Below, one piece after another: positions 12,764-38,194 of a stretch of 64,000 nt of DNA. Under the pieces are notes generated by a model. It was not told where the DNA came from. It made no database searches and saw only the letters and a list, made by a program, of their open reading frames with translations. Source of the stretch: Symbiodinium sp. CCMP2592 (lineage: Eukaryota; Sar; Dinophyceae; Suessiales; Symbiodiniaceae); NCBI GenBank assembly GCA_905221615.1, contig CAJNDT010005445.1, positions 1,331,813 to 1,395,812 of the forward strand, in the 5' to 3' direction. Positions within the stretch are counted from its first letter, which is position 1, and each line of letters begins with the position of its first letter. The translations under genes were made by a program, and so were the position numbers.

Positions 12764-12913
12764 GCGCAGCATGGCACAAGCCTGACGCAAGCACCCCAGA
12801 TATTGTCACTATTTTCCTTGCCTCGGATAAGAATGTACCAGAAAGAATCACCAAGACCCGGGAGTACGATTTGTTACGGATAAGAGAGTGCCAGAAAGAG
12901 CCCCGTAGAGCAA

Positions 12914-15235: not shown

Positions 15236-15239
15236 CCGC

Positions 15240-16245: not shown

Positions 16246-16949
16246 CTTGGTTGTACCTTAGCAGCGGCGCAAAAGGAAGCTACCTTGGTCGGTACATGTA
16301 AGCGCCATGCAAGCACGAGAGAAGCGCGAGCTTGACCGAGCGCACATGTTTAGTTGCAGCCGAGTTGCTTCCACTGTCGTACCTTGGCTGGGACATGAAG
16401 AATGAACGCATGCACGAGGGAGCATGCTTGGAAGTTGGAAGTATGAGCATGACGAACGATCACAAGTACGATGGAGCATGAACTGGGAGTGTGAAGATCC
16501 CTGAAGGCACCCCCCGGGCAGAGTCATGATCCGCTTCCGGGATAGCCTTGTTTTAGAATACCTTTCGCGTTTCCGTAGCTGTTTCTGTTCGGAATGAACC
16601 AGCTTCACCCGCACTGGATACCCGATTTTGGAGTGAATCGGGACACCGGTAGTAACACGCACCCGCAAGCGAGTACATGCGTTCCCTTTTGCAGGTTAAA
16701 CGGAAAATCCTGGCATCTGGCTTTAAAGCGCCTGGCTCAGGAAGGTATCCTCGGCCTTTTTAGGTATGTGGAGGCCGGTTCTCCAGTGATTGGCTGTGCT
16801 CCAGCAGTCGCTGTAGAGAGCCGCCCAACACTAGATTCCACAGGGATAGCTTAGAGGGTCCGCTCGGCTGCAAGCGGAGCGCCTAGAAACGCACTGTGTG
16901 TACGGCTTCGGTCCTGCGATTTTGGGGTTCGGTCTTCCCTTGCGAAGCC
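16246..16949. repeat. Conserved 0.7 kb spacer of satellite unit, copy 3
   Basis: Nearly identical to the spacer of copy 1 by eye, which indicates recent duplication or gene conversion. Confidence 0.7.
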
Positions 16950-17445
16950 TAAATTGACACATGCTGTCAATATTCTGCGCCTTTTGGTCGTGTCTTTATG
17001 TGAGCTGCCGACTAAAGCCCCGAAATATTGACACTGCCTGTCAATCTTCCGTGCCTTCCAGCCGAAGAGCCCGCCCGGTGCGTCACACTCCCCGTGTGGC
17101 CGTGGTCCATACATTGACGCATGCTGTCAATATTCTGCGCCTTCTGGTCGTGTCCTTATGTGAGCTGCCGACTAAAGCCCCAAAATATTGACACTGCCTG
17201 TCAATCTTCCGTGCCTTCCAGCCGAAGAACCCGCCCGGTGCGTCACACTCCCCGTGTGGCCGTGGTCCGGACATTGACGCATGCTGTCAATATTCTGCGC
17301 CTTCTGGTCGTGTCTTTATGTGAGCTGCCGACTAAAGCCCCAAAATATTGACACTGCCTGTCAATCTTCTGTGCCTTCCAGCCGAAGAGCCCGCCCGGTG
17401 CGTCACACTCTCCCGTGTGGCCGTGGTCCGGACATTGACAGTGTC
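16950..17445. repeat. 160 bp tandem repeats, block 3
   Basis: Three copies at exact 160 bp spacing (about 16,961, 17,121 and 17,281). Confidence 0.88.
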
Positions 17446-18070
17446 AATCTGGCGCCGGTCCGGTGTCAATCCGCGGGGCGGCCAGTGACACTGTCAATCC
17501 CGAGAGCGGCAGTGTCAATCTGAAGGCGGCCCGTGTCAATCTGGCGCCGGTCCGGTGTCAATCCGCGGGGCGGCAGTGTCAATCTGGAGGGGGGGGGGGC
17601 GGCAGGCAGTGTCAATCTGGCGCCGGTCCGGTGTCAATCCGCGGGGCGGCAGTGTCAATCTGGAGGGGGGGGGCGCCAGATTGACCAATCTGGCGCCGGT
17701 CCGGTGTCAATCCGCGGGGCGGCAGTGTCAATCTGGAGGGGGCGGGGGGGGATTGACACTGCCGCCCTCGGGATTGACAGTGTCAATGTGGCACCGGTCC
17801 GGTGTCAATCCGCGGGGCGGCAGTGTCAATCTGGAGGGGGGGGCGCCAGATTGACACGGGCCGCCTTCAGATTGACACTGCCTGCCGCCGGGGCGGATTG
17901 ACACTGTCAATCGGGGAAGGGGGGGGGGATTGACACTGCCGCCCCGCGGATTGACACCCCCCCCCGCTCCAGATTGACACTGCCGCCCCGCGGATTGACA
18001 CCGGACCGCCTTCAGATTGACACTGCCTGCCGCCCCCCCCCCCCCCCGATTGACAGTGTCAATCTGCCCC
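17435..18070. repeat. GGCGCC-rich palindromic array, block 3
   Basis: Same motifs as blocks 1 and 2. It ends in a C homopolymer near 18,035 before the 328 bp repeats. Confidence 0.85.
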
Positions 18071-18074
18071 GCCC

Positions 18075-18857
18075 GGTTAACTTGACACTTCCGGTCAATC
18101 TTCCGTGCTGCAGCCCCTTGATATTGACACTTCCTGTCAATCTTCCGTGCTTCCTAGCCGGAAAGCCCGCCCGGTGCGTCACACTCCCCATGGGGCTGTG
18201 GTCGACTAGAGCCCCAAGAGATTGACACCTCCTGTCAATCTTCTCGGCCTTGCAGCCGGCCAGAGCCTACAGATTGACACTTGCTGTCAATCTTCGTGCC
18301 TTCAGGACGTGTCTTTGTGTGAGTGGCCGACTAGAGCCCCAAGATTGACACTGCCTGTCAATCTTCTGCGCCTGTCTTTGTGTGAGTGGCCCACTAAAGC
18401 CCTTAGATATTGACACTTCCGGTCAATCTTCCCTGCTACAGCCCCTTGATATTGACACTTCCTGTCAATGTTCCGTGCTTCCTAGCCGGAAAGCCCGCCC
18501 GGTGCGTCACACTCCCCATGGGGCTGTGGTCGACTAGAGCCCCAAGAGATTGACACCTCCTGTCAATCTTCTCGGCCTTGCAGCCGGCCAGCGCCTAAAG
18601 ATTGACACTTGCTGTCAATCTTCGTGCCTTCAGGACGTGTCTTTGTGTGAGCGGCCGACTAGAGCCCCAAGATTGACACTGCCTGTCAATCTTCTGCGCC
18701 TGTCTTTGTGTGAGTGGCCGACTAAAGCCCCTAGATATTGACATTTCCGGTCAATCTTCCCTGCTAAAGCCCCTAGATATTGACACTTCCTGTCAATCTT
18801 CCTTGCTTCCTAGCCGGCAAGCCCGCCCGGTGCGTCACACTCCCCGTGGGGCTGTCG
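18075..18857. repeat. 328 bp tandem repeat, block 2
   Basis: Corresponding points are at about 18,222 and 18,550, again 328 bp apart, followed by a partial third copy. Confidence 0.85.
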
Positions 18858-19205
18858 TCTTTCTGGCCCACTCTTGGCCGTAACAAATCGTACTGCCGCC
18901 GGGTCTTGGTGGCTCTTTCTGGCCCACTCTTGGCCGTAACAAATCGTACTGCCGGGTCTTCGTGGCTCTTTCTGGCCCACTCTTGGCCGTAACAAATCGT
19001 ACTGCCAGATCTTGGTGGCCGTAACAAATCGTACTGCCGGGTCTTGGTGGCTCTTTCTGGCCCACTCTTGGCCGTAACAAATCGTACTGCCGGGTCTTGG
19101 TGGCTCTTTCTGGGCCACTCTTGGCCACATCAAATCGTACTGCCGGATCTTGGTGGCTCATTCTGGCCCACTCTTGGCCGTAACAAGTCGTACTGCCGTA
19201 CAATT
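18858..19205 (+). repeat. 53 bp tandem repeat array (right border)
   Basis: About six copies, some truncated, of TGGCCCACTCTTGGCCGTAA + CAAATCGTACTGCCGGGTCT. Small open frames on the minus strand here follow the repeat period. Confidence 0.88.
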
Positions 19206-22263: not shown

Positions 22264-22512
22264 TGAAACCATAAACCTCTAAGGGGGTAGCTCTAACAGG
22301 TACCTACAGCAATGGCTGCATGCTCATACATATACATTCCGCTGCCCATTGGCTCACAGTGGTTTTACCATATTGAGACAAGTTAAGCTCTCCTTGCGTA
22401 GCAAGACAAAACAACTACTGTCCGTGTGCAGGGCGCTGCCCTTTGATCCTTAGGGAATAAACTGGTCATACACCTCCTTACAAGGAGTATCCCTTGGGGG
22501 TGTATCGGCACA
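22264..22512 (+). repeat. 5' LTR
   Basis: It begins TGAAACCATAAACC and ends in CACA. It matches the 3' LTR over all 249 positions with four mismatches counted by eye (about 98.4%), which suggests fairly recent insertion. It contains AATAAA at 22,456-22,461 and, 3' of it, the short dyad CTCCTTACAAGGAG, both candidates for RNA 3'-end formation. Confidence 0.93.
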
Positions 22513-22518
22513 GTTTTC

Positions 22519-22531
22519 TGGTAGCGGAGCC
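22519..22531 (+). other. Primer-binding-site-like sequence
   Basis: TGGTAGCGGAGCC lies six bases after the 5' LTR. It resembles the TGGTATCAGAGC class of copia PBS that pairs with initiator tRNA-Met 3' ends. The two changed bases need checking against tRNAs of the host. Confidence 0.6.
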
Positions 22532-22614
22532 CGGAAAGGGCCGCCCGCCTCACAAAGTCCGCTACAGCGGTCGGCCTCGCCGAACGCTTAACCAAGCGGA
22601 CAAGAGGCAGCACA

Positions 22615-25020
22615 ATGTCGAGCTCGCATAGCGAAGCCGACGGCAGTTCCCAGTCCTCCGGGGGATATGAGAACGAAGAGACCTCCCAAGGTCCAGCTAC
22701 TTATGTCGCACAGTCATATGCAACATCTGACCGCATGCTTGCATCATTAGGCATAACGCCCAAGATCGCGCCTGCCTATGATGGCACCACCTCGTGGTTT
22801 GAGTATGAACAGTTGATTGACGACTGGTGCGATATAACAACGCTGGATGATACCAAAAGAGGTCCGTCTCTCAAGACGAGGCTCTCCGGATTGGCCGCAG
22901 TACAAAAAGAATCACTCAACCGAGAAAGGCTTGCAGCCCCAGACGGAGTAGATTACTTCAAGAAGAAGATGCGTCCATTTTTCGTGAAAGGAGAACAGTA
23001 CGTTTTCCTGTGGCGTTTTCTCGGCCTATTCAAGGCATGGAAGGGCAACCAAGACTTTGTGACTTGGATTGCTAAGTTTGAGATCGTGCTACAGCGCGTG
23101 AGAAACTCATGGATGGATCTCTTACCAGAGATAATTCTGGAAGATGCCCATCCTGATTTCATGCAGGCTGTGCAAGCAGATCAAACCTTCATGCGCCTAC
23201 AGGATGCAACCGAGAGAGACACATACGCCGCACGTTTCTTCGAAACATGGAACAAGGAACGCCTTGATAATCATCGAAGAGCGTTTCCTCTAAATGATAA
23301 TCTCCTAGCTCTCCTCTTCCTAGTGCAGTCCGACCTAAATGAGATGCAACGTGAGAGGTTGGTAACAGCATTGACCAACCAAGGTTACCGAATTGAGACC
23401 TACACGTACCCTATAGTACGGCAGACCATGTTCGATCAGTTCTCAACGACCAGAACTGGTCTGCAGGATCCCAATATTCGGCACACTTCTCACAAGAAGG
23501 ACCGCCATGGAAGGAGAGATCAACGCCGCAAACGCGGAGGTCGAAACTTCCTCATCCTCGATCAGGGTGAATACGACGGAGTCGATGGATTCTGGCTCCA
23601 AGACGAAGACACCCTTGAGGAAGGCTTTCTTGCCGCCGAGGATGAAGAAGCTGTCTTCTGGACAGTTGACGACCATGAAGCCTTCGTTGCAAGGAGATTC
23701 AAAAAGGGAAGAAGACCAAGAATGCGTCCCGGATCACCGGGAAGAGCAAAGGGTGGCAAGCGAAAAGGACGTGGCCGTTTTAGGTCATACCGCGGAAAAG
23801 GGAGAGCCAACCAGGCAGAACATGATCCAACTGATTCCAGCTATTTCGGTAAAGGTAAAGGAAAAGAAAAAGGAAAAGGTGGAAAAGGCAAAGGAAAAGG
23901 AAAGGACAAAGGAGATAAAGGAAGCTCCTTCAAGGGTACAAAATCAAAAGGCAAAGGTAAGGATACAGCTAAGTCTGCCTCCTTACAAGGAGACCAAACT
24001 GGATCTCCACAGGCCTATGAAAGTTCCACCGCACCGAGCTGGGATTCATGGTATGAGGACAGTTATTATACTGACTCCAGTTGGAATTATGCCGCTTATG
24101 ACGATCAAACGTCTTATACATACTATGCATCACAAGCCTCACGAAGAAAGACACGGAAAAAGAAGAGAAGAAATCAAGCAGGATCATCAGGTAGAGGCAC
24201 AGATCCGAGCGCGCACCAAGAACCCGTGTACAACTCATCAGTGAGTTACGCGCCCCAGGTTTTTGAACCATCCGAGGGGCAAGGTGTGGAGACTGCAACA
24301 GCAGTGTTTCCGTTGCAGCACACCGTCCTATCTGCTCTCACCGAGCGGATCAATCTTGATAAGAGCCCTACCTTTGTCATTCTTGACTCTGGTTGTACTA
24401 GGGCTATGGGTTCCCGCTATGCGGTGAACAGGCTTATCAAGGCCGTGAAGCAACATGCCCCAGGCATGATTGATTTCACTTTTTCACCTTCGAACACGAA
24501 GTTCTCTTTCGCAGATAGTGAAACAGCTCTTATCAAGGAGCGTGTAACTCTATGGTTTAACACAACTCCAAGAAGAGATACAACCATAGAAGTTTTGGAT
24601 CAGGGAAGAGTCCCCATCTTGTTCTCCATTGAACAGATGAGAAACCTAAGAATGACTCTCGAGTGTAGTCCCACAGCTGACCTAGCAACGTGTGAAGCTT
24701 TCGGTTTGTATAAAACCCCTCTTCCGATTAGTACCAATAACCATTTGGTATTGGACCTTCTAGGCTTTACTTCCACCAGGAAGTACCTTCCTAAGTCAGG
24801 TACATCGTTCCGTGCGACGGAGACTGCTCTAGGAGCCAATAAGCCTTATGTTAGGATACCGGAAGGTCGCTGTCCAGCCTGTGCCGGACAGAAAAAGGCT
24901 CACACGTACCTCAAGGGTTGTGACAGAGCACCTGAGGGAGCAGCTGATCCACCACCGAAGAGGATTTCAGGGAAAAGGAAGCCTCTTCCATCTGATCCGG
25001 CAGAATCATCTGCCAAAGAC
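22615..25020 (+). CDS. gag-pro: Copia Gag and aspartic protease
   Basis: The start at 22,615 (MSSSHSEADG) follows the PBS by 83 bases. Residues about 50-270 are a helical Gag-like region (TSWFEYEQLIDDWCD, FLWRFLGLFKAWKGNQDF). No CCHC zinc knuckle is visible. Instead, a Lys/Gly tract (about residues 408-450, repeated GKGKGK) and a Tyr-rich segment follow, probably serving RNA binding. The protease motif VILDSGCTRAMGS has its catalytic Asp at residue 591. The C-terminal Cys pair RCPACAGQKKAHTYLKGC sits before an acidic Pro/Ser linker. The frame stays open to 25,167, but from about 25,000 the coding sense moves to the -1 frame, so the authentic end in this frame is near 25,020. Gag packages the RNA and the protease cleaves the polyprotein. 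Confidence 0.85.
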
Positions 25021-27437
25021 TTGATCCACCAGAATCATCTGGAGATGTTCCTGAGCCTTCCGGACCATCGGAACCATCATCAGGCTCTAGAGACAAACCT
25101 GCAGAATCCTCTGCACCGCATGAACCTCCAGAAGAAGAAAGACTTGAGGTTCCATCTGCGAAGATAAAGACTCCAAAGGGTCTTAAAAACCTTCTGAAGA
25201 AAACCCGCAAATATGCGGACAAACCTCCTGTTGAAGAGAAGTCTACAGTCCCAGGAGCTGATGACGGGACGGAGGTAAGACCACTTGAGTCAAGAGAATA
25301 CCCGGCTCCTGGCACAGACTCACCAACAGGTGAAGAGATTGTCGCAGAACCTTCGCCATCTCTTCCCATTGCTCTTCGCAGGATTCATGAGAAGCTTAAG
25401 GACCCTGTAGAACTCTACAAGCTTCACCTTAAGCACCGTCATATGAGTACGGATCAGTTCAAGCGACGCACAAAAGCCTTACAGATCCCAAAGGAGATCT
25501 ACGAGCTATATGACCAACTGGTCAAAAAGTGTTCAGCCTGCCAGGAACATGTGAGAGCTCCTTCGAGAGCGAAGATTTCTGGTTTAAGATCAGAGACTTT
25601 CGGTGATCTCACCTTCGTAGATCACGGTGAGCTTCCAATTCCCGGCAAGGATAGTCGCTTAGTATTTCTTATTCTCTATGATGGAGCAACAAACTTGTTG
25701 ACTGCCGAAGTAGTCCAGGATAAAGAAGAACATACTACAATGTCTATTATGAATGACTACTTTGAAAAATTTCAGATCAACCCAAAGGTTGTAGTTGGAG
25801 ATCAAGCATTCATGACTCCAAAAATGGAGGCTTATTACAATCGGCAGAATATCAAGCCTGTGGCAACAGGACCTGGAACACCATGGCCCAACAGGGCCGA
25901 AGCTGCTGTAAGATTGCTGAAGCATCAGATTAAGCTCATACTTCAGATCCTGAAGGATGGTGACCCGCAGTATAACGGAATCACCATGAAGTATGGCAAC
26001 CTCGTTCGCCAAGCATGTCTGGCAAGAAACTCTTCGATTACCTACGGAGGAGTTACTCCTTTGGAAATGGCCTTCGGAAGGCGTCCTCGAGATGTTATCA
26101 CACCAGAGAACGCCGATCCCAATCAGTTGACAGGTAATCCAACTGATACGGAAGTCACTGCGAGAGCCATTAAGGAGCTTGCCAACAGGGCTTACCAAGA
26201 GGCACGCCAATCTGATGATCTGCGTAGAGATCTTGCAGCCAGACTGTCAATGACCCAAGGACCTTTCTCTTTGGGAGATAAGGTTTTCTACTGGTCAGAA
26301 GATAAGTCTAAGATTGGATCCACTGGGTCCAAACATGGATCTTGGCTAAAAGGTAAGGTGATCTCCGAACTCGGAGGATCCATGGTAGGTGTGGATCTTG
26401 GAACACGCATCGTCCGTGTCAATATCTCAAAACTGAGGAAAAACTATGACATAACATCTGATGTGGAGATTCCTCTCGCTCCTGATGAGGAAACTCTGAC
26501 GTCAGAAGGTTCTGACCACGCAAGTTGTATGGTCACCTTCGATGCTTCCTTGCAGTCGACAGACCTAACGATTCCTCATCAAGAGTGTCACTGGCAGGTC
26601 ACCAGTATTGGGAAGATTGATTTTCTAGAACTCTACGGCGGATCTCCCCGCATGAGTCACAAGGCTGCCCTATCAGGTCTTCGAGTAGGTCAGCCAGTCG
26701 ATTTGCGTAGCGGTCTAGATCTTGAGCAACCGCAAGGTCGCTCCAATCTTCTTAGGATCATCAAGGAACAAGAACCTACTATTATTGTTATGTCACCGGA
26801 CCATTCTCAGTGGTCTAGCTGGTACTCACAGTGGAAGAAAGGCTCTGCCAAGAGACTTTCTGTTTTAAAATTCTGTGAATCGGTCGCAGACCACCAAATG
26901 AAGCTCGGACGTTACTTTGTTCTTGAGAACCCATACTACAGCAGGCTCTGGTCTTCACCAGAAGCAAAACGCCTGTTTTCTAATCATAAGATCAGCTATG
27001 AGGTCTGTAACCTACAGGCCTATGGCATGAAAGATCCAACAGGATACTATGAATCGAAATCTTCGATTTTTATGCACAACTTGCCACCGCAAGTTTTAAT
27101 TCCTCTCCAGAGGCATTCTGCCAAAACGAAGTCTCCAACATCTCCACCAGGAGACGAAAAGGGTATTCAAGGCTACGGTCTTAAAACCAAACTCGCACAA
27201 GTGTATCCTTATGAATTCTGTGAGACCTTTGCCTCGTGTTTGGCAAGATTCCTGAAACGAGATGCGTATGCATCTCATCTTTCTTTAGTCACAGACATAC
27301 TAGAATACTCTGGAGATGAATGCCTCCAGGGACTTTCGGAACTTCTTGATCAGGAGTATTCACTTTTGACACAAATCCTCTCAAGGATTCAAAACTCCTG
27401 CAAGATCCGAAAATCAGATCACTTGTTGCTAGAGTAA
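24996..27437 (+). CDS. pol (IN): Copia integrase plus methyltransferase-like domain
   Basis: The frame is open from 24,996, without an ATG until 25,443, so it is read by frameshift or is disconnected by an indel. GAG-pre-integrase Zn residues are in LHLKHRHMS and KKCSACQ. The integrase core acidic residues are in DLTFVDHGEL, VVVGDQAFM and TPWPNRAEAAVR (D, D, E). After a basic C-terminal part, from about 26,610, comes a second fold. FLELYGGSPRMS resembles the SAM-binding motif I of cytosine methyltransferases, MSPDHSQW sits where the PPCQ catalytic loop would be but lacks the Cys, and FVLENPYY resembles the ENV motif. I read it as a degenerate, probably inactive DNMT-like domain. The end at 27,437 is in a non-conserved region where the -1 frame takes over. 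Confidence 0.85.
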   Translation, partial: SGRIICQRLDPPESSGDVPEPSGPSEPSSGSRDKPAESSAPHEPPEEERLEVPSAKIKTPKGLKNLLKKTRKYADKPPVEEKSTVPGADDGTEVRPLESREYPAPGTDSPTGEEIVAEPSPSLPIALRRIHEKLKDPVELYKLHLKHRHMSTDQFKRRTKALQIPKEIYELYDQLVKKCSACQEHVRAPSRAKISGLRSETFGDLTFVDHGELPIPGKDSRLVFLILYDGATNLLTAEVVQDKEEHTTMSIMNDYFEKFQINPKVVVGDQAFMTPKMEAYYNRQNIKPVATGPGTPWPNRAEAAVRLLKHQIKLILQILKDGDPQYNGITMKYGNLVRQACLARNSSITYGGVTPLEMAFGRRPRDVITPENADPNQLTGNPTDTEVTARAIKELANRAYQEARQSDDLRRDLAARLSMTQGPFSLGDKVFYWSEDKSKIGSTGSKHGSWLKGKVISELGGSMVGVDLGTRIVRVNISKLRKNYDITSDVEIPLAPDEETLTSEGSDHASCMVTFDASLQSTDLTIPHQECHWQVTSIGKIDFLELYGGSPRMSHKAALSGLRVGQPVDLRSGLDLEQPQGRSNLLRIIKEQEPTIIVMSPDHSQWSSWYSQWKKGSAKRLSVLKFCESVADHQMKLGRYFVLENPYYSRLWSSPEAKRLFSNHKISYEVCNLQAYGMKDPTGYYESKSSIFMHNLPPQVLIPLQRHSAKTKSPTSPPGDEKGIQGYGLKTKLAQVYPYEFCETFASCLARFLKRDAYASHLSLVTDILEYSGDECLQGLSELLDQEYSLLTQILSRIQNSCKIRKSDHLLLE

Positions 27438-28110
27438 ATTCTTTATCGAGTAAAACTGAATTACCATTGCATCATTCCAAACCATCACCGTCCCTTGATG
27501 CCTTGGTGTCAGACATTACTCGCCTTAGATCAAGACTCTTACCAGGGTCTGGTTTCGAACAGTGTACTCTATACAGAGGTACATTTGGAACAGTTAAAGC
27601 ACTCACAAGTGTAACTGATGGCGTTCTTGTTTTCTGGAACAAGAAGAAGCCTAATTCGACCATGACGTGTTGCTTGCCGCACCAGGTTTCCTGGAACAAA
27701 GTACACCCATCAACCTTCTCGGGGGTGCTATTCCAGATGACAGGCGGCAAGACTTCACCGTCCGTGCGAACACCGCCGGATGTAATCATGTCGGACGAAG
27801 AGGTTTCGCCGTCAGACCCGTCGGAACCAATGAGCACTAATCGCTCACGGATCACATCTGACGATGTTTCTATGCCGGAACCAGATCAGCCGATGCCTCC
27901 CGGCACGCCGCCGTCGCGTCCTCCTCCTCCCGTACCTCCACCGCGACTACCGGCCGTTTCCTCCGATGAGCCCGTGGCTCCTGCTCGGGCTAAGCCTCGC
28001 GTGCATCCGCCTCCTCGCGTTCCGTCTCCTCGGCGTCTGGGGGGTGATGTGTCGCCAAGGTCTTCATCGGAAAGGAAAGTTTCGCCGCACAAACAGAAAT
28101 CACCTCACAG
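27350..28110 (+). CDS. Pol linker between integrase/MTase-like part and RT
   Basis: This frame, in -1 relation to the integrase frame, opens at 27,350. It encodes a moderately structured stretch (LDALVSDITRLRSRLLPGSG, VLVFWNKKKPNSTMTCCLPH, SWNKVHPSTFSGVLFQMTGG), then an acidic and Pro-rich disordered tail. It has no ATG of its own near the start and runs into the RT frame by a further -1 change between 28,048 and about 28,125. No catalytic motif is seen. It is either a part of a continuous Pol in an intact copy of the element, or a decayed linker. Confidence 0.6.
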
Positions 28111-30480
28111 GTGCCGACACCTAAACCTAAACCGAAGGCACATCCACAGGGACCCATTCTTCCATTACAACAAGATGAAGAAGACACTGAAGAAGAACTG
28201 GTCCCAGACGACCCCGGACAACCGTCCGCTCCTCCTCACACTTCTGGTTCACCAGAACCGGAGAGCGATGCCGAGTCAGAGAACACAAGGTATTACTCTG
28301 ATGAGGAAGGTGACTTGGTCGTAGATGAGAAGGACTGGGTCCTTCTCACAGAAGAACAGAAACTGTGCAGTAACACAGGTTCTTTCTCCATGCCTCGGTA
28401 CATGCATGGCGGACCCGTGGACATCAGAGAGGTAACATCAAGAGTGAGGTCAGACCGAACACGGTATAAACCCACTAAAAGGTTTCGATCTGACATCCGT
28501 GAAGAGTATGATCTTCTCACGGAAGAGGACAAGGCTTTATCTCTAAGTTCCTCCAGGAACTCAGCGAACTTAACCCAGAAGGCACAGCGGAAGGAGGCAA
28601 CCGCCAAGGAAAAGCGTGAGATGAAGAAACAGTTTGATGAAGCGAAAGCAGCAGAATATCAGAGCTGGCTAGACAATGATGTCTTTGAGCTCGTCGATAC
28701 ACGGAAACTCGGAAACATCCGAAATTATGTCACTGGTCGATGGGTCCTGACTCTAAAAAGAGACAAGGACGGAAACTTCCTTAAGTGTAAGGCCCGATGG
28801 GTCCTGAGAGGTTTCCAGGATCGACAGAAGGACATTCAGCAAACTGATAGTCCTGCTGCGAGTCGCCCAGGCTTCCGCTTAGCGATTCAACTAGCAGCTA
28901 ACAAGCTGTGGAATCTGACACACATCGACTTAAAGACTGCTTTCCTACAGGGTGAAGCCTATGATGAGTCGAGAGACATAATCTGTCAGATTCCTCCTGA
29001 AGCAGGTTATCCTTCCTACATTGCAGCGAGGATGAAGAAACCCGCTTATGGACTTAACGATGCACCTCGAAGATGGTGGAACATCGTTGATAAGGCACTC
29101 CTGTCTTATGGCCTGGTGCCAACCCGTGCGGATCGCTGTACATATGTTTTGTATGGTAAGAAGTCTGCAACAGCAGATGCTGAGCTCAAGAAGTCTCAGC
29201 CAAAGACCATGGAATCAGCGATTGACTATCTCCTAGATCCCATAGCAGGCAACAATGCCAAGGGTAGACAGGTACATGGAGTAGTCTGTTTGCATGTAGA
29301 TGACCTGTGCATGGCCGGTGATGACACCTTTCGTAAGGCCGTGATAGAATCGATCAAAAAGGAATTTGCAGTAGGTTCTGAAGATACGAATGATATCATG
29401 TTTGTAGGACAGAGATTAGTCTGGAAGGATGCTACAGCATCAGTGCCAGCACATATCTCAGTAAATCAGAACCTAGCTGTTGAAGCTCTAGAAGAAATTG
29501 TTTTTGACAAGAAGCTCAACAATGAGCAACAATGCACACCACAGCAGCACACTGCTTATAGAAGTGTTTTAGGACAGATCAACTGGCTACAAAGCCGGAC
29601 TCAAGCCCACATCTGTTATCGCTTCAGTAGGTGTGCGAGCAAGGCTGCCAAGCCTACTATCGGTGATATTCGAGAATTGAACAAACTTGTTAGGATTTTG
29701 AAGTCTACCGAAGTAGAATTGCGTTTTTGGCCGCTGAAAGGAAATCTCAGAATCCTCGGTTACCCTGATGCTTCCTACAGGAACAATGATGACAAATCAT
29801 CTCAGAGAGCACATGTTATTTTCCTTGCTGAAGATCGAAATCCGAAGCTAAAAGGAATGAAACAATCAGCAGCAGCTGCTTCTTCCAAGAAGAATGATTT
29901 CTCTGAATCCTCTATCAAGGAAACATCCTCGAGAGGTAGCCTGGTGGACTATGAGTCTCACAAGATTACGACAACCACAATGTCCACAACAGTGGCAGAG
30001 CTTAACGCACTGATGCGTTGCTTTGGTACCTGCCTGTTCCTCAAAGGACTTTGGGCAGATCTCTCATCAGAGACCGTACCTATACATATCAGAACAGATG
30101 CGAACAATCTTGTGACAACAGCAGGCACGACACACCTTCCAGAGCAAAAGGAAACTCACCATCTTATACAGATGCTTCGTAAGGAATCCAACTCTGGATC
30201 TCTAGATGATCTAGCTCATGTAAGCTCGAAGTACTGCCTAGCTGATGCATTAACAAAGCATTCGGCACAACCTGATGAGCTTATCAAGGCTCTGGAAACA
30301 GGAAACTTACCAGAAACAGACATTCATCCACCCTTCCGTGAACTCCTTCAACATAAAGCTTTCACTGTTCGGTGGATTATAGACAACCTTAGGAATGCCG
30401 CTACAGCGGTAGCCTTCCTTGGAATTGATGTCTCAACAGAGATTTACCGATTATTTTACTGCCAAGGAACATGGTGGTAG
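28048..30480 (+). CDS. pol (RT-RNaseH): Copia reverse transcriptase and RNase H
   Basis: The frame opens at 28,048 with no ATG near it. The RT_2-type domain includes GRWVLTLKRDKDGNFLKCKA, THIDLKTAFLQG (first catalytic Asp), KPAYGLNDAPRRWW and the active-site LHVDDLCMAGDD (Asp pair at 29,299-29,304). RNase H follows with GYPDASYRNNDDKS, TVAELNALMRC, IRTDANNL and KYCLADALTK, giving the full D-E-D-D set. The stop TAG is at 30,478-30,480. All signature residues are intact, so this Pol part could be active. It copies the element RNA and degrades the RNA template. The usual YVDD of copia RT is HVDD here. Confidence 0.93.
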   Translation, partial: CVAKVFIGKESFAAQTEITSQVPTPKPKPKAHPQGPILPLQQDEEDTEEELVPDDPGQPSAPPHTSGSPEPESDAESENTRYYSDEEGDLVVDEKDWVLLTEEQKLCSNTGSFSMPRYMHGGPVDIREVTSRVRSDRTRYKPTKRFRSDIREEYDLLTEEDKALSLSSSRNSANLTQKAQRKEATAKEKREMKKQFDEAKAAEYQSWLDNDVFELVDTRKLGNIRNYVTGRWVLTLKRDKDGNFLKCKARWVLRGFQDRQKDIQQTDSPAASRPGFRLAIQLAANKLWNLTHIDLKTAFLQGEAYDESRDIICQIPPEAGYPSYIAARMKKPAYGLNDAPRRWWNIVDKALLSYGLVPTRADRCTYVLYGKKSATADAELKKSQPKTMESAIDYLLDPIAGNNAKGRQVHGVVCLHVDDLCMAGDDTFRKAVIESIKKEFAVGSEDTNDIMFVGQRLVWKDATASVPAHISVNQNLAVEALEEIVFDKKLNNEQQCTPQQHTAYRSVLGQINWLQSRTQAHICYRFSRCASKAAKPTIGDIRELNKLVRILKSTEVELRFWPLKGNLRILGYPDASYRNNDDKSSQRAHVIFLAEDRNPKLKGMKQSAAAASSKKNDFSESSIKETSSRGSLVDYESHKITTTTMSTTVAELNALMRCFGTCLFLKGLWADLSSETVPIHIRTDANNLVTTAGTTHLPEQKETHHLIQMLRKESNSGSLDDLAHVSSKYCLADALTKHSAQPDELIKALETGNLPETDIHPPFRELLQHKAFTVRWIIDNLRNAATAVAFLGIDVSTEIYRLFYCQGTWW

Positions 30481-30538
30481 TCTTGTTTGCTGGTAGCACA
30501 ACCATGTGCTGGATTTTCTATTTAGACTGTTTTTTGTC

Positions 30539-30558
30539 TAAAAGAAAATTTGTGTCTG
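30539..30558 (+). other. Internal copy of the pre-LTR A-rich motif
   Basis: TAAAAGAAAATTTGTGTCTG, 58 bases after the pol stop, equals the 20 bases at 37,924-37,943 except for one position. In an ordinary copia element this place would be the polypurine tract next to the 3' LTR. Confidence 0.7.
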
Positions 30559-30704
30559 CAAGCTGCGTTTTCATCAAGATCAGACATGTTCATGAGAACT
30601 CTATGTTCTATACCATCCGCAGCCGCTTTCAGCCTCGAGCCTCACAGCAACTAGCCTTTTGAGCTAACCAAGCATTCCTGATCCCGTTTGGTCATCGTGC
30701 CGTA

Positions 30705-33700
30705 ATGAGCACACGATCAAATTTCCGTAGCCGTGATGGGTACGCCCTACCAAGGGCAGAACAGGCGTACCATGAGCGACATCCACACATGGATAGCTCT
30801 TACCCCGAGTCTCGTCGGGACGCATCACGTCGACACACCGAACACGGTGGACACCGATTTCACAAACGTGAGAAAAATAACGAGCCTCCGTACATTTACA
30901 TGGGTCACCAACAGGTGTTCAATCCGCGTCCAAGAGATCTTGCTGACCTGATCTTACGATGTGGCCATGCGAGTCGAGCAAAGCTCACTCCAATCTCCAA
31001 ACATGGAGTCAGGCTCTACGAAGGAGTCCTCCAAGGACCATGGGACAACAGTCCCCTTTTATACTGGGATAACAACGTGGGCAATCACGCTCGTGATCCA
31101 CGCCAGTTTTGTACGATGCTTGCACATCACCTTCAGACTGGCCTCCCACAGGAGGTAAAACAATGTGTGAGTCTTGACGCATCTGGAGAATATGACTATC
31201 CCTCCTCAGTGCCAAGACTGGTAGAGGTAACAGGTCTCTCACCAGAGATGTGCTTCCACATTCTCTCCAAGACCAACAAGGTCGGAAGGTGGTTAGCACA
31301 CTCAACAAGACACCTTCAGAATCAGCGCCAAGATCTCTTTTCTGGCCAACACAATTATCTTCTGGACATGTCCAAGTTGGCCGATGCACAGCTCGCACAA
31401 TATTCACCACAAGAGATCGCGCTTGGTGTTTTACTTAACACTAAGTCCAGGTTCGTGGTCACTATGGTTTATGACCAAGATGGCAGGGCTGAAACAACAA
31501 TTGCCGCCGTTACCATCCCACAGGATGCAAATGTGATGACCATGACCAAGCTTTACCTCTCGGCAGTGGGAGGACACGGTTCACGAAGAACTCTACCAAG
31601 AGCTGAAGAACCAGATCCTGAAGAAGAGAGGCCAAGGTCACACATGACCATCTCAGACTTCATGGCAACGGGGAGCAATCCTGTGCAGTCCCATGCGCAG
31701 CGTCTCTCCACTAACGCGCCAAGGCCCGTAGGCATGGAAGATTTTGTTCGACAGAACAACCCTTGTTACATCATGCATGCCACGGACCTGCATGCACTAT
31801 CCTCAATCCTGAGGCATGGTCTGGTACCATCAAACCTCTTATCTCAGGTGGTGACCTCACCAGGTCTTCAAGCTCTCGTGAATGAAAACAGTCGTTCCAA
31901 TAGGGACACTGTTCAGTTTTCATCGCTAACCCTGGCGAATCCTAATCCGACTTTGCTGCGTGCCAACAAGGCACTGCTCCTAGTATTCGACGCAAATAAC
32001 GTAGTGAACGAAGTCACAAACATGTGGCAGTCGCAAGCGGGGATGTTTGCTACACCAGATGTAGTGCATGCCCGTACTCTTAGCGCCGTATTTGCACCCT
32101 CTGAAACACTCTGGGTATCATCGCAATACGATGAGCTCAAGAGCATCGGACCATGGTGGGCAGACCACTGCTCCGAACAAATGCCGTCAGCGACTTACGA
32201 GTCGAAGAAATGGTGCTCAAATTACGGCAAGGAGATCGAATCGACACTTCGCAAGATGTCAAGGCGAAATCTGCCTCCAGAGCCTCCCAAGGCTAGATCT
32301 TCTCACAAGAAGTCTTTCTCTTTGCCAAATACAGAGACTGACACAGCTCCAAACCAGGAGCAAACCGCTTCTGCAGGTGAAGTACCTCCGAACACGGAAA
32401 CTACTGCAAAGGAGATCCACCCGAGATCCAAGCTCGCCCGGCAGGCCGAGGCCGACAAGGATCCGGACAGTCTTATGGGACAGCTCTGGAATTCCGACGG
32501 CACCAGAAGCGCCACTGAAGTGCTCAAGATAACGACAGGTCACAAACCTCCAGAACCTGTCCAGGATACTTCTGCCAACGTAGTTCCTCCCAAGGAAGAA
32601 TCTTCTGGAACAGAGACGGAACCTGAGGAACCAGATCCTAACCAGGATTGTGACGAAGAATCAGACGCTGAGACGGCATCAAGCGAAAAGAGCGAGAAGA
32701 GCGAGAAGAGCGAAAAGAGCTCAAAATCTTCGTCATCCTCAGAACTCCGAGTTGATGTTAATCCGTCTCACAAGACGAACTCTGCACCTGCAGCATCAGA
32801 GGAGAAGAAAGAATCTCCCACGAAAGAGATCACAGAGAAACTTGAGAAGGTCAAACTTGACCAACCAAAGCCTGAAACAGAATATGTTCAGAGTTCAGAC
32901 GAAGAGCCAAGAAAACCAAAATCTCCTAAAAAGGAGAAGGAAACATTCCTAGTTCTCTTCGATCCTGAAACAGAAACCTATTATCGAGTCAACAGAAGCA
33001 AGCTCAACCTCGAATACGAGGAACCTGCTGATGAGGAAGATCTCGTAAGAGAACATGAGCGCATCAGCGCTCGGATTCGAGAAAATACCAAGCACCGAAT
33101 TTCGAAGTCACCGTCTAACCCGGCTATGCAACAGGAAATGCAAGAAAGAATCTGGGTTAGTCGATGGAATCGAAAAATCCGAAGTCCACTCATGATCAAA
33201 GATTCTGAGGCTCCTGACGAAGAGGAGTGGGACAGACCCAGAGAGTCAGCATCTTCCTCCTCTGCGCCTCCTAACAAGGAGAGATTTGTAGGAGTACGCA
33301 GGACAGCCATGAGCCTTAACCAAAGGATACGAATGTTGCCTCGACCAGACAATCCTCTCTGCGATCTCTGCAAACAGCCTACAGGCTATTTTTGCTATTC
33401 CTGTGGAACGATTGTATGTGCAGACTGTCGACTTACCCCACAGGGTAAACAACGGATGTGCGAGTGCGTCTTGCCAATCGATTGCCTTGAGACCTCCAAA
33501 GTGAGAGCAGGAATGACCTCAGATGAGCGTCAGTTTTTATACGAGGCCATCCTCACACATGAGGACGTAGATTTGGCAGTCCAGAAAATCAACATGTATT
33601 GCGAACACGCAAGAAGCATGTTCGAAAAGGACCATCCAGGCGTAGATCCATACAGCCTTGATGATATCAGGAACAATCCTCCGAATACGTATGACAGCTC

Positions 33701-36700
33701 TACAGAGGCTCCAACCCTGGAGGAATATAAGAGCGTTAACAAGAGTCACATCAACATCAAGGACTCTAGAACAAGCCACCCGGCTTCTTTTCTCACTCTT
33801 ACTGGCCACGAAGACAAACTGGTGCTCGATGCACATTACGAGATAGTTCGCAATAGGATGGCCGGTGTCAATGAGAAGAGAGAATACATTGAAGGCTCGA
33901 ACCCAGATAGCGTATCGCTAAATCTAGTGGTATTCAACTGGGGAAATATGGATCGAGCTCCGGTGCCCGCAGGGAATCCCAAAAAGAAGCTCAAACCTGA
34001 GAAGGGATTCGATTATCACCCTCTTATTGACATGTGCTTCAACAATTCAGCTCATATTACCCTCGTACTCGAGGCAGGAGCACTTGCGTCAGAGTACTCA
34101 ATCGCAACCATGCGAAAACACGAATACAGAGGGATGCTAATCCACTCTCCTCCCAAGGAGCCTGAGGCACCCTCAATGTACATCGGAGTCAAGGGTGACC
34201 CAACGACAGACATTGCCCTCGTCCACCACTTTTACCGTCATCGAACAATGAAGCCTAAGAATGGTGGTACCAAGAAGCGACTGTGGGCATGCCACGGTGC
34301 GGTGTGCCGCCTCACATTCGGGTACCACAGTACCATACCAGAGGCAAAAGAATGGGTCCACCCAAATTCTGGCCAAAGGATGACGAGAGACGAGTTCATG
34401 CAGATTATCGGATATGACCCGCTCAAGGGCAAAAATCCTGACAAGGATGGACCCACTGATGGCTCTTACCTCTCACCAGAGGCTTGCCTGACACTGTCGA
34501 ACCTCGACCCTCCGCCGATTCTCTGTGAATGGAACGGCCATGTCGAGGGTGATGAGCCACCAGAGGAAGACTTTGAGACATACGCAGAGATCTTCTCACA
34601 AGAAGCATCTAACGATCTTGACGAGATGTGGTGTACAAAAGGGCCTTACAAGGTCATCACCATCGCGATCGTCCATTTCAACTCGTTCATGACTCATAAG
34701 GAAGAACAGAGACGCGAACTGGTGAACGCGTTCCTCAACGAGATTCTCCCTTTTAAACCGGATGTGATAGCGGGAGATCTCAATAATATTGCGTCGAGGC
34801 TCACCTTAAAAGGTGGAGACGTTCACCCGCGAAACAGTTTGTTTTCTCTATACCTGGAGAAGAAACTTGCAGCATTCAACAAAATAGCAGGAAGGCACTC
34901 ACAAGTGCGACATCTTTGCTTGAACAACTCCGACCAGCACAGACTGGCACGTGCAGATCGTCTACCGGCGGACCCGGCGAAGAAAGTTGCTGACCTTGAC
35001 TGTATCAACAGTTATATCCTTGACTGGAGTAAAACGCCGCACACGGCGTCACCTAGTCCAAGAGATGTTACACCTGCCGCCGAAAGAACATACTGGGAGC
35101 GAATCTCAGATATGTGGCAGGACACGAACAACAACAGGGATATTGATATCCGTCTGTTTGTTTCAGTCAAGCAGTACTATTCAACTTTTTCTAACCTTGA
35201 CCTATGGTTGGGTCCCACTGACAAAGATTGGCACAGCCCATTGGGCTTCACGATACAACCAATCCTTACAAAAGGGAAACACAACCGGTCAGATGCCCAG
35301 GTCCAGAAGATCGCTGACAAGCGAAAGGCTTACAAGCAGCGTAATGCTGAATACTGGGGTTACAACGATTCATTCGTTTACTCATCCGGCAACAGCTGGT
35401 ACGACAAATCGCAACCATCAGGTAGCCATCACAGATATGGAAGATTCTGGGAGTGGCCACAGCCTGAACGTCCCAGCGAGCCTGAAGGTCCTCCTCCAAG
35501 AAGGAACCAGGAATCATCGTCCTCTTCACAACAAGATCTACCAAGATCAAGGTCCAGGCCTCAAAGAACCAATATTGTTGACAAGCTCAACATGTCTTTG
35601 GAAGAGCTGGATGGACTAGAAGAAGAACCGTCACCAACAAAAAGTGACATCGAAGAACACGAAAGAGAAACATCAAACTTGATGTCTGCTCAGAGAGATG
35701 AAGAGGAACAAGAGGACGAATCCTCCAGCCGGAGAAGAAGAAGGAAGGCATCGCGTCCACCGTCTGCTCCGAGCGGCAAGGCACTCAGAACAGCTGCTAC
35801 AGCAGCGGGGTTGTCGGGCTGGTTCGGACACCGCAACCGAGGTGGAGCAAACGCAGAGTCTACCAAGACTGATGAAACTTCACTTCCAGACTCACTAACC
35901 AGTGAGCAAGACTTCTCCGTCTTCAGCATCACGTGGAATGTGTTCCTGCTGCTAATGGGCTTACACTGGATGTGGAAGCAGATTACCAGGCCTCCTATCA
36001 GATGTATGGAGCGCCAACAACCAAAATCAAGAGCAGCAGCGAACCAAAGAGTTCCATTCCTCGAACCCGAGGATGAACCGCAGACGCGTGAACCTTTAGG
36101 ACCCAACAGGGTCAATTCCGGAGAAACAACTGATCTGCGACCTATTTGGCATACTTCCCGAAGCGAAGTCTACCATCTCTCAGACAGCTGTTACCAGCTT
36201 AAGCAAGCAAGAGATGTTTGCAGGAAGGTGCTGTGCAAAAACTGCCTCCATGCAGTACAAGTTGCGGAGATTCGCAGGAATGATCCTTTCCAAAGAGGTG
36301 ATACACGACCACGTGGCACCGAAAGAGACATTGAGCGCTTCCAGACCTACGATGATGCAAGTAACACTCCTCACATGACACAATTATTCCAGGATGCCTT
36401 GCATGCACAAATGGCCGAGGAAGCCATGCAGATTACCTACACATCGATCCCTAAGGGATCCTCGGCAAAGGCCAGAGGTACATCTGCACTCCCAAGTGCC
36501 GCATCGTCATCAGCGCCCAAGGCAATGCCACCAGGGCCTAACAAGGCTAACATGTCACCTCCACCTAAGAGTCCTCCGCCGAAGGCGAAAGGAACAGTAC
36601 CTTCTGATCCTCCAAGACCAAAAGGTCCTACCAGAAGAGGAGGTCAAAATCGGCGTATTCAACGAAAGGCAGCTAGAGAAGCCCACAACAGTGGACTCTG

Positions 36701-37637
36701 CACCTATGCAGACGCTGCACTTGACCAAGCCAATCAAGGCCAGGCAATTAACGTTACGTGTCGAAACATAGTATCAAGACACGTCAGCTCTATCGATGCA
36801 ACGGTAGAAGCAGCCGGCCAGTTTACACAACGCGTGCTACAGCACGTAGAAACATATGATGAAGAGGAACCGTGGAGCACGGAGTTCCTACCAATCGTGG
36901 AAGTCCTATTCAGGAACTTAAGCGGCGATGAAACAACTGTCATACATGACAATCAAACGGTAACTATGCCTCTTGCGAAATACACAGACCTCCTCAGAAT
37001 CGCACAAGCATTGCGAGGCTCTATCCAGAGAGACAAGGAGGAAAGAAAGGAACATCTTGACACCATCCAAGATACTCTATCCAGAGTGGAAATCCTTCTC
37101 ACAGCACTGAAGGACTCAAGGACAGTCTTTAATCAATTGGTCAATTCCTCACTAGAGATAGAGCGAAGAAATAACAATCTCAAAAATGTCCTCGAGACAC
37201 TCTTTGATGACCAAAGCTCTGAGGAAGACCAATCAGAATCTGACAATGAAGAAGTCCTAACTCCTTCTGCACCACAGTACTGGAATAGCCTTTATGCCCA
37301 CGCCTTATCTCCCTCAGGAGATGAAAGTGAAAGATCATGGGCGTCCTCAGACGGACAGCTTGAAAGAAGAAGGGCTGAAAGGGCAAAGGCTAAGCAGCCG
37401 CAACCGGCAAAAGCCAAGGCAACTCCAGTCAGCTCACAAGCTGCTCCAAAGGCCGAGCCAAAGGCGACAACATCCAACCATGGATATGATACTGCAGACG
37501 CCGCCTTCACCAGGGCTGAGAACAGATTATTCGGAATCTTTTCAAGTTCCGAAGAAGACCACTCAGACCCGGATGAGCCACATCCGAACGTTTACGCTCG
37601 AGCCTATGATCCAAACCTGGATCCGAATCTGAGATAA
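30705..37637 (+). CDS. Giant accessory protein (2310 aa): Tpt1/ART-like, zinc finger, EEP nuclease
   Basis: It begins with MSTRSNFRSR, 224 bases after pol and in a different frame. Visible parts: residues 1-330, unknown. About 353-472, Tpt1/KptA-like: IMHATDLHALSSILRHGL, then VQFSSLTL, a hydrophobic strand and VVHARTLSAVFAP. About 660-720, Ser/Glu/Lys repeats. 886-921, zinc finger with CDLCKQ, CYSCG, CADC and CEC. About 1070-1515, EEP fold: FNWGNMDR, VLEAGAL, IVHFNSF, VIAGDLNN and DKDWHSPLGF, with an unusually long insert before HFNSF. About 1737-1758, a hydrophobic, possibly membrane segment. About 1812-1848, a second Cys/His cluster (YHLSDSCYQL...CKNC). About 2090-2185, probable coiled coil. 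The frame is unbroken over 6.9 kb, which implies selection. It is neither Env-like nor a known copia product. Expression would need splicing, reinitiation or its own promoter. Domain names are from motifs only. Confidence 0.85.
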   Translation: MSTRSNFRSRDGYALPRAEQAYHERHPHMDSSYPESRRDASRRHTEHGGHRFHKREKNNEPPYIYMGHQQVFNPRPRDLADLILRCGHASRAKLTPISKHGVRLYEGVLQGPWDNSPLLYWDNNVGNHARDPRQFCTMLAHHLQTGLPQEVKQCVSLDASGEYDYPSSVPRLVEVTGLSPEMCFHILSKTNKVGRWLAHSTRHLQNQRQDLFSGQHNYLLDMSKLADAQLAQYSPQEIALGVLLNTKSRFVVTMVYDQDGRAETTIAAVTIPQDANVMTMTKLYLSAVGGHGSRRTLPRAEEPDPEEERPRSHMTISDFMATGSNPVQSHAQRLSTNAPRPVGMEDFVRQNNPCYIMHATDLHALSSILRHGLVPSNLLSQVVTSPGLQALVNENSRSNRDTVQFSSLTLANPNPTLLRANKALLLVFDANNVVNEVTNMWQSQAGMFATPDVVHARTLSAVFAPSETLWVSSQYDELKSIGPWWADHCSEQMPSATYESKKWCSNYGKEIESTLRKMSRRNLPPEPPKARSSHKKSFSLPNTETDTAPNQEQTASAGEVPPNTETTAKEIHPRSKLARQAEADKDPDSLMGQLWNSDGTRSATEVLKITTGHKPPEPVQDTSANVVPPKEESSGTETEPEEPDPNQDCDEESDAETASSEKSEKSEKSEKSSKSSSSSELRVDVNPSHKTNSAPAASEEKKESPTKEITEKLEKVKLDQPKPETEYVQSSDEEPRKPKSPKKEKETFLVLFDPETETYYRVNRSKLNLEYEEPADEEDLVREHERISARIRENTKHRISKSPSNPAMQQEMQERIWVSRWNRKIRSPLMIKDSEAPDEEEWDRPRESASSSSAPPNKERFVGVRRTAMSLNQRIRMLPRPDNPLCDLCKQPTGYFCYSCGTIVCADCRLTPQGKQRMCECVLPIDCLETSKVRAGMTSDERQFLYEAILTHEDVDLAVQKINMYCEHARSMFEKDHPGVDPYSLDDIRNNPPNTYDSSTEAPTLEEYKSVNKSHINIKDSRTSHPASFLTLTGHEDKLVLDAHYEIVRNRMAGVNEKREYIEGSNPDSVSLNLVVFNWGNMDRAPVPAGNPKKKLKPEKGFDYHPLIDMCFNNSAHITLVLEAGALASEYSIATMRKHEYRGMLIHSPPKEPEAPSMYIGVKGDPTTDIALVHHFYRHRTMKPKNGGTKKRLWACHGAVCRLTFGYHSTIPEAKEWVHPNSGQRMTRDEFMQIIGYDPLKGKNPDKDGPTDGSYLSPEACLTLSNLDPPPILCEWNGHVEGDEPPEEDFETYAEIFSQEASNDLDEMWCTKGPYKVITIAIVHFNSFMTHKEEQRRELVNAFLNEILPFKPDVIAGDLNNIASRLTLKGGDVHPRNSLFSLYLEKKLAAFNKIAGRHSQVRHLCLNNSDQHRLARADRLPADPAKKVADLDCINSYILDWSKTPHTASPSPRDVTPAAERTYWERISDMWQDTNNNRDIDIRLFVSVKQYYSTFSNLDLWLGPTDKDWHSPLGFTIQPILTKGKHNRSDAQVQKIADKRKAYKQRNAEYWGYNDSFVYSSGNSWYDKSQPSGSHHRYGRFWEWPQPERPSEPEGPPPRRNQESSSSSQQDLPRSRSRPQRTNIVDKLNMSLEELDGLEEEPSPTKSDIEEHERETSNLMSAQRDEEEQEDESSSRRRRRKASRPPSAPSGKALRTAATAAGLSGWFGHRNRGGANAESTKTDETSLPDSLTSEQDFSVFSITWNVFLLLMGLHWMWKQITRPPIRCMERQQPKSRAAANQRVPFLEPEDEPQTREPLGPNRVNSGETTDLRPIWHTSRSEVYHLSDSCYQLKQARDVCRKVLCKNCLHAVQVAEIRRNDPFQRGDTRPRGTERDIERFQTYDDASNTPHMTQLFQDALHAQMAEEAMQITYTSIPKGSSAKARGTSALPSAASSSAPKAMPPGPNKANMSPPPKSPPPKAKGTVPSDPPRPKGPTRRGGQNRRIQRKAAREAHNSGLCTYADAALDQANQGQAINVTCRNIVSRHVSSIDATVEAAGQFTQRVLQHVETYDEEEPWSTEFLPIVEVLFRNLSGDETTVIHDNQTVTMPLAKYTDLLRIAQALRGSIQRDKEERKEHLDTIQDTLSRVEILLTALKDSRTVFNQLVNSSLEIERRNNNLKNVLETLFDDQSSEEDQSESDNEEVLTPSAPQYWNSLYAHALSPSGDESERSWASSDGQLERRRAERAKAKQPQPAKAKATPVSSQAAPKAEPKATTSNHGYDTADAAFTRAENRLFGIFSSSEEDHSDPDEPHPNVYARAYDPNLDPNLR

Positions 37638-37923
37638 GAAAATTCTCAGAGTTTCACAACAGTGAATCACAAAGCTCTAACAAGAGCACAATGAGTGGCT
37701 GCATAATTCGGTAGTAGAACATCACCAGACCTGATCTTGTACAGATGATCTCTCTGACAAATATGCATGAGTGTGTGCGCAAAAGGAGTGGAGTTTCCTC
37801 AGCAGTATACTTCAGTGCTATACCTAGCATACTTAATATGCTGTTTTTATAATGAGTCCAAAACTCCGCAACTGTGACAGTGGGCATAACAGTATATGTG
37901 TGAATGTGCGGCCATGCTTTCGG
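37638..37923. other. 3' untranslated region of the copia element
   Basis: AT-richer sequence without a frame of note between the accessory ORF and the pre-LTR motif. Confidence 0.6.
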
Positions 37924-37943
37924 TAAAAGAAAATTAGTGTCTG
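37924..37943 (+). other. Candidate polypurine tract before the 3' LTR
   Basis: The purine run GGTAAAAGAAAA (37,922-37,933) ends 12 bases before the LTR. A polypurine tract normally abuts the LTR, so the plus-strand primer assignment is tentative. Confidence 0.45.
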
Positions 37944-37945
37944 TT

Positions 37946-38194
37946 TGAAACCATAAACCTCTAAAGGGGTAGCTCTAACAGGTACCTACAGCAATGGCTG
38001 CATGCTCATACATATACATTCCGCTGCCCATTGGCTCACAGTGGTTTTACCATATTGAGACAAGACAAGCTCTCCTTGCGTAGCAAGACAAAACAACTAC
38101 TGTCCGTGTGCAGGGCGCTGCCCTTTGATCCTTAGGGAATAAACTGGTCATACACCTCCTTACAAGGAGTATCCCTTGGGGGTGTATCGTCACA
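37946..38194 (+). repeat. 3' LTR
   Basis: 249 bp, the same length as the 5' LTR with no indels. AATAAA is at 38,138-38,143. It is followed directly by AGGGG. Confidence 0.93.

Follow-up and report, generated by a model that had tools for sequence, protein, structure and literature searches.

Is the open reading frame (ORF) of 2,310 codons that follows pol in a Ty1/copia element of the dinoflagellate Symbiodinium sp. CCMP2592 a selected part of that element, a host gene carried as a passenger, or an artefact of assembly? The element occupies positions 22264-38194 of a 64,000-nucleotide stretch of contig CAJNDT010005445.1, the whole of which was analysed and is called the window here. We conclude, with a probability of about 0.8, that it is a copy, with slight damage, of a multi-copy Symbiodinium Ty1/copia family that was recently active, has a selected second protein and lies beside G/C tracts; the function of this protein we infer from its likely parts.

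Structure of the element

The 15.9 kb stretch is a real, complete copia element with an accessory ORF, arranged in the order gag-protease (PR), integrase, reverse transcriptase (RT)/RNase H and a frame of 6.9 kb. Direct long terminal repeats (LTRs) with TG...CA ends, integrase upstream of RT, an RVT_2-type RT, a 5 bp duplication and multiple copies with recent LTR pairs all agree with Ty1/copia, and the position of integrase before RT together with the RVT_2 type identifies the element as copia. The two LTRs are identical at 245 of 249 positions (4 differences). Pfam placed rve at about 25.6-25.9 kb (sub-threshold) and RVT_2 at about 28.7-29.2 kb (above the cut-off), and the protease, RNase H and zinc motifs were identified by eye. 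The first-pass annotation had described a giant copia element with matching LTRs, RT/RNase H and a 2,310-codon ORF after pol, and this description is confirmed by the following features.

22264..22512, plus strand, 5' LTR, 249 bp, TG...CA ends
22519..22536, plus strand, probable primer-binding site for a tRNA, complementary to a 3' terminus that ends in CCA, by analogy with copia
22615..25167, plus strand, gag and protease segment, first frame, DSG protease motif by eye
24996..27437, plus strand, integrase segment, second frame, rve E 0.0086, 16.8 bits against a cut-off of 32.6
26613..27280, plus strand, methyltransferase-like Rossmann stretch within pol, between integrase and RT, motif level, by eye
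27350..28324, plus strand, integrase-RT linker, third frame
28048..30480, plus strand, RT and RNase H, fourth frame, RVT_2 E 4e-18, RNase H motifs by eye
30705..37637, plus strand, accessory ORF, 2,310 codons, ATG at 30705
37946..38194, plus strand, 3' LTR, 249 bp, TG...CA ends

The stop-free accessory frame runs from 30663 to 37637, and the 2,310 codons are counted from the ATG at 30705. An upstream start at the end of pol was considered for subfamily A and rejected, since a stop at 30660 is present in 17 of 18 copies and the remaining copy is shifted; because of this common stop the start at 30705 was retained for subfamily A. The single subfamily-B copy that was read does not have the stop at 30660.

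Copies of the element in the genome

We searched the window's own genome (1,098,105,373 bases, 1.1 Gb, in 5,383 contigs). The LTR and the start of gag, used as one query, gave at least 40 full-query matches at 99-100% identity, the window included (41 matches in total; 40 scored among 1,301 candidates), and a pol query (P0013) gave at least 63 related pol copies scored of 3,327 candidates, 31 of the 63 keeping 2,658 codons open around RT. Among 20 fetched subfamily-A copies (L009-L028), 19 contained accessory ORF sequence and 14 had the end of pol, the ORF, the untranslated region (UTR) and the 3' LTR in order, so that copies in which the ORF stands between pol and a 3' LTR, for which the first-pass annotation had proposed to look, do exist. 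One of these ordered copies, L011, carries an insertion of about 100 bases within the ORF, which was not counted in the ORF indel list. As for the others, L027 shows ORF, UTR and LTR but begins inside the ORF, L009, L014, L017 and L020 have gaps, cuts or rearrangements, and L028 has no accessory ORF match.

The arrangement was also seen outside subfamily A. In C3757, with a subfamily-B LTR start, the ORF follows pol, and the RT position and frame length span gag to RNase H. The expected LTR start was taken from 36 of the 63 pol relatives (24 B, 1 A, 3 TGATTCC and 8 with none recognisable), and the stretch downstream was read for 16 of the 63 (13 B, 3 TGATTCC): the ORF is encoded in 14 of these 16, lying at the expected distance in 13 and displaced in 1. 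The LTR pairs of five copies differ by 0, 0, 0, 1 and 4 bases. The LTR terminus exists in at least three variants (TGAAACC, TGATTCC and TGTTTGCG), which agree in the LTR bases that come next (L001-L104).

A chimeric assembly, or an unrelated gene or another element nested just once between the end of pol and the 3' LTR, would account for the unusual length of the element, and rearranged copies do occur (L017 has the end of pol and the start of the ORF twice, and L020 is rearranged). However, many copies on separate contigs have the identical order, as do S. microadriaticum gene models, and we regard this explanation, which the first-pass annotation had named as an outcome that would overturn its proposal, as having almost no chance of being right.

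Selection on the accessory ORF and its relatives

Variants of the ORF were counted in 16 subfamily-A copies including the window (L014, L017, L020, L027 and L028 were left out). Those shared among copies comprised 51 nonsynonymous and 162 synonymous changes and no stop (omega 0.14; 7.3 stops expected), and those private to one copy comprised 92 nonsynonymous and 137 synonymous changes and 2 stops (omega 0.26; 9.1 stops expected); with a neutral nonsynonymous fraction of about 0.7, the binomial p is 1e-41 for the shared and 7e-24 for the private variants. Judged from these variants, the counts show purifying selection on the accessory ORF. Selection on the accessory protein had been suggested before, with dN/dS well below 1 between copies as its sign, and both the omega values and the depletion of stops bear this out.

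ORF matches numbered four by protein search and five by profile search, nine in total, and the 5 that are named are all Symbiodinium, namely Symbiodinium sp. CCMP2592 (2, possibly the same genome), S. microadriaticum (2) and KB8 (1), in line with the dinoflagellate host that the first-pass annotation had supposed. The long relatives P0006 and P0007 are 56% identical to the accessory ORF, and in-frame ORF pieces in S. microadriaticum and KB8 gene models have about 43 to 68% identity. P0006, a predicted protein, aligned to the window as one tblastn piece of 1,929 columns, and the alignment already starts at 30510, within the pol-ORF spacer. When neutral change was simulated to 56% protein identity (100 runs), the 1,817 codons in common with P0006 acquired 29-60 stops. 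The ORF is not a chance frame, because it recurs in sister copies and, at 56% identity, in P0006.

Beyond the nine protein matches, all of the same kind, no homologue of the ORF was found in the searches made, viral and bacterial/archaeal contigs included, and no relative was confirmed in pattern scans of viral contigs (ORF and pol) and of bacterial/archaeal contigs (ORF). This absence of other homologues would suit a host gene captured once and since carried without function, but such a passenger is hard to reconcile with omega of 0.14-0.26, with depleted stops, and with a frame kept in P0006 where neutral drift would have placed dozens of stops; we consider it highly improbable. The preferred reading of a second protein under selection is retained.

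In P0131, an S. microadriaticum gene model, RVT_2 and parts of the ORF are joined in one model, and P0134 has the order accessory-gag-pol-accessory, which is what neighbouring elements would give. P0008 and P0009 probably represent other insertion sites, because the genes downstream of them do not match the window. The C-terminal part of P0009, a CCMP2592 gene model, continues from the element into an RNA-virus polymerase-like remnant (by eye). P0006 and P0010, each listed with a 374,199-base contig, were compared with window positions 29086-37637, and pol was 95% and the accessory protein 56% identical; if both lie on one contig, the difference would be explained by modules exchanged near the end of pol or by an ORF that evolves very fast.

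Reading frames of gag-pol

The gag-pol of the window is divided over four frame segments by three frame changes. Sister copies differ in length from the window at these changes in 6 of 6, 6 of 6 and 5 of 6 cases (at the first, L029 differs by another amount), and 5 of these 6 also carry further length changes, peculiar to each, at other places in the gag-pol stretch. From this comparison, the frame changes are mostly private to the window copy, and in many copies gag, PR, integrase and RT/RNase H appear, from the frame length and the RT position, as one frame of about 2,650 codons. In the gag part of 8 copies the shared variants were 1 nonsynonymous and 10 synonymous, and over the gag and integrase-to-linker stretches omega was 0.02-0.22 (7-8 copies), as tight as the ORF or tighter.

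Two other accounts of the frame changes were rejected. For programmed frameshifting in gag-pol there is no usable slippery site, the lone in-frame heptamer running straight into a stop, and a break common to the gene models P0008, P0131 and P0134 was not borne out by the DNA, except in one copy at one place.

Two features go beyond the first-pass annotation, namely the preference for G:C tracts and the methyltransferase-like stretch in pol (26613-27280). The latter is 39% identical to part of P0057, another RVT_2 protein, and shares 32-39% identity with its relatives P0057, P0113 and P0030; by eye, the usual methyltransferase catalytic-loop motif appears to be replaced in the family of the element. 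This stretch had no Pfam match and no PDB sequence match.

Insertion into G:C tracts

The insertions adjoin G or C tracts, and their orientation follows the LTR terminus. At the 5' side, 35 of 40 subfamily-A junctions end in GGGG, a further 2 contain GGGG within 12 nt, 1 lies in (AGGG)n and 2 in C tracts, that is, 38 of 40 are in G-rich tracts, against a background of 0.8% of window positions outside the element that end in GGGG. The 3' flanks start in a G tract in 14 of 15 cases and in a C tract in 1. A recognisable LTR start was present in 28 of 36 further stretches (the other 8 were dropped): 25 lie beside C tracts (24 B ends, 1 TGATTCC) and 3 beside G tracts (1 A end, 2 TGATTCC). All 24 B-type LTR starts therefore adjoin C tracts, in the orientation opposite to A.

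We also applied a strict test that required at least 8 G or C in 12 and used distinct flanks, from which 10 of 76 junction rows were dropped as having no recognisable LTR start. Flanks of A-like ends (n = 38) were G-rich in 35, C-rich in 2 and other in 1, and flanks of B ends (n = 23) were G-rich in 0, C-rich in 16 and other in 7; among these 7, one is the internal junction of a neighbouring copy and six have CCCC within 12 nt. The LTR terminus and the tract orientation are strongly associated (35:2 vs 0:16, Fisher p 1e-11).

Could survival or assembly bias, with insertions persisting in such DNA or misassembled copies being drawn to the tracts, rather than a choice made by integrase, produce this association? 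G-rich 12-mers are indeed not rare near the window (1.5% have at least 8 G; 0.9% are C-rich), and some flanks recur on different contigs. However, the great majority of A junctions end exactly in GGGG, far above the background, and survival alone does not predict that orientation tracks the LTR terminus; bias is in our judgement an unlikely source of the pattern. A more ambitious proposal is that the giant protein is a multi-domain nucleic-acid-processing protein that was acquired and is needed for the cycle, that together with integrase it directs insertion into homopolymeric G:C tracts, and that the few terminal bases of the LTR, which differ between the two subfamilies, set the orientation. 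We put this forward tentatively, as somewhat improbable. If true, the targeting code of an LTR element could here be read. Among the titles and abstract openings listed by literature searches there was no match for such G:C-tract targeting, which is weak evidence of novelty.

The 5 bp duplication noted in the first-pass annotation stands for the family in part. In the window copy the duplicated AGGGG sits within an AGGGG array and is uninformative alone for that reason. Flank pairs could be compared in five copies, of which 3 match over exactly 5 bases; in the other 2 the match extends over 13-14 bases of repeat and is ambiguous. The copy C791 (TGGGG) is the only one of the three exact matches outside a long repeat, and its duplicated TGGGG is part of a short G run, which suggests that the tract existed there prior to insertion.

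Predicted parts and function of the second protein

Four parts of the accessory protein can be proposed, as follows.

31755..32054, plus strand, Tpt1/KptA-like stretch, PF01885, weak, C-terminal half of the profile
33348..33431, plus strand, B-box-like zinc finger, PF00643 E 0.00026
33915..35243, plus strand, EEP (endonuclease/exonuclease/phosphatase)-like region, motifs N, E, H, GDLN, D-I and DWH in order, by eye
35913..35969, plus strand, hydrophobic, possibly membrane-spanning segment, Kyte-Doolittle maximum of the protein

The EEP superfamily has the ordered motif set N, E, GDxN, D, H. The EEP-like region is the best conserved long region relative to P0006 (69% identity over 461 residues), compared with 52-54% for the N-terminal, Tpt1-like and first linker regions; three shorter regions reach 60-74%. 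For EEP (PF03372), neither the window piece nor P0006 had a Pfam match at E values of 10 or less, and the region had no PDB sequence match. Functions of a Tpt1-like lobe, a B-box and an EEP-like nuclease are proposed from sub-threshold profiles and motifs seen by eye.

We presume that the second protein would be a separate product, translated from a trans-spliced or subgenomic mRNA or after re-initiation, and would act in the element's own cycle. Because its likely parts are an ADP-ribosyl lobe like that of Tpt1, a zinc finger of the B-box kind, an EEP-type hydrolase and a hydrophobic segment, we favour a role in processing or protecting the ends of RNA or cDNA, which is the most likely and most economical job and has about an even chance of being correct. 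Docking to host factors or membranes is possible at perhaps half that likelihood, and help in choosing the G:C-tract target is less likely again. An Env-like, retrovirus-like protein for cell-to-cell spread would fit the position after pol and the single hydrophobic segment; against this, the Pfam matches of the scanned pieces included no envelope family (no dedicated signal or fusion peptide tool was applied), and the hydrophobicity maximum is modest (Kyte-Doolittle 1.43 over 19 residues), so this role is very improbable.

Several points weigh against our conclusion of a selected second protein with these parts. The Tpt1/KptA profile (PF01885) falls below its cut-off (E 0.03 for the window and 0.025 for P0006; 14.8 and 15.1 vs 26 bits), and by eye residues of the C-terminal half alone were seen toward the Arg-His-Arg-Arg tetrad. 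The B-box is a near miss (21.5 bits vs a cut-off of 24.1), the EEP and methyltransferase assignments were made by eye without a profile match, two AlphaFold models were poor (pLDDT 44 and 30, the second for the EEP-like region), and PDB sequence searches gave nothing credible. The copies used for omega are those most similar to the window at the LTR and gag, and 2 of the 16 stretches read downstream of pol relatives had no ORF match. Finally, 10 of 15 complete sister ORFs have frame-shifting length differences, real or assembly-derived, the frame being intact in the other 5, and full in-frame stop codons occur in 2 of 16 copies; decay is indistinguishable here from sequencing error. Since the gag-pol frame changes are mostly private and sister ORFs are often shifted, the intact ORF next to a broken gag-pol lies within the noise of the family, and the contrast between the two, from which selection had at first been argued, has to be abandoned, all the more as 31 of 63 pol relatives keep the long gag-pol frame.

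Surroundings in the window

Upstream of the element, 10220-18860 contains large tandem repeats in a nested arrangement (units of about 167-330 bp in blocks of about 2.2-2.4 kb, 63-99% alike), and 1-8000 is GC-rich (64-66%) and strongly AT-skewed, both strands having long open frames that overlap, of which six plus-strand frames were tested and had no Pfam match at E 0.01. Ten flanking frames had no Pfam match at E 0.01. Neither a spliced-leader match at up to 3 mismatches nor a tRNA was found in the window.

Comparison with known systems

Dinoflagellate genomes are rich in LTR retrotransposons, and to our knowledge such elements rarely carry so large a conserved extra gene. A copia element with a selected 2,310-codon protein and near-exclusive insertion at G/C runs, in an orientation that goes with its LTR ends, is a natural system for the study of integrase target choice, and may help explain how repeat-rich dinoflagellate DNA absorbs many insertions. 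Among the literature titles and abstract openings listed, a scope outside which most subscription papers fall, no paper dealt with the accessory ORF.

The present element resembles the Ty1/copia elements of Symbiodiniaceae in its LTRs, integrase before RT, RVT_2 and many recent copies, and differs in its length of about 16 kb, its 2,310-codon second ORF, its G:C-tract insertion and the methyltransferase-like stretch of pol. Sireviruses and other plant copia elements also have an extra or env-like ORF after pol, but these are smaller and of other sequence.

In the accessible part of one report, copia is the most abundant retrotransposon type of Symbiodinium genomes and is without any DNA methyltransferase (DNMT) domain, and SymbioLINE-Dnmt and SymbioDIRS-Dnmt3 are Symbiodinium LINE and DIRS elements that carry DNA methyltransferases (PMC5890265). 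These share with our element the algal genus and acquired nucleic-acid enzymes under selection, and differ in class, being LINE and DIRS elements and not copia with an accessory ORF (PMC5890265). The Tpt1/KptA RNA 2'-phosphotransferase, as far as the available text describes it (PMC6333775), resembles the second protein through a weak profile match to its C-terminal half in two diverged relatives, although the match is below the cut-off and the tetrad residues (Arg-His-Arg-Arg) that belong to the RNA lobe were not identified. The accessible text on Juno, Vesta and TelKA of bdelloid rotifers describes no ORF of the size or domain set of the accessory ORF, and these belong to retrovirus-like LTR lineages in which the captured ORF3 is a GDSL esterase, a DEDDy exonuclease, env-like or of other kinds (PMC5408684). 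They are alike in having an extra enzymatic ORF in addition to gag and pol, the nuclease type included, and from that text they are the nearest precedent that we found for captured ORFs (PMC5408684).

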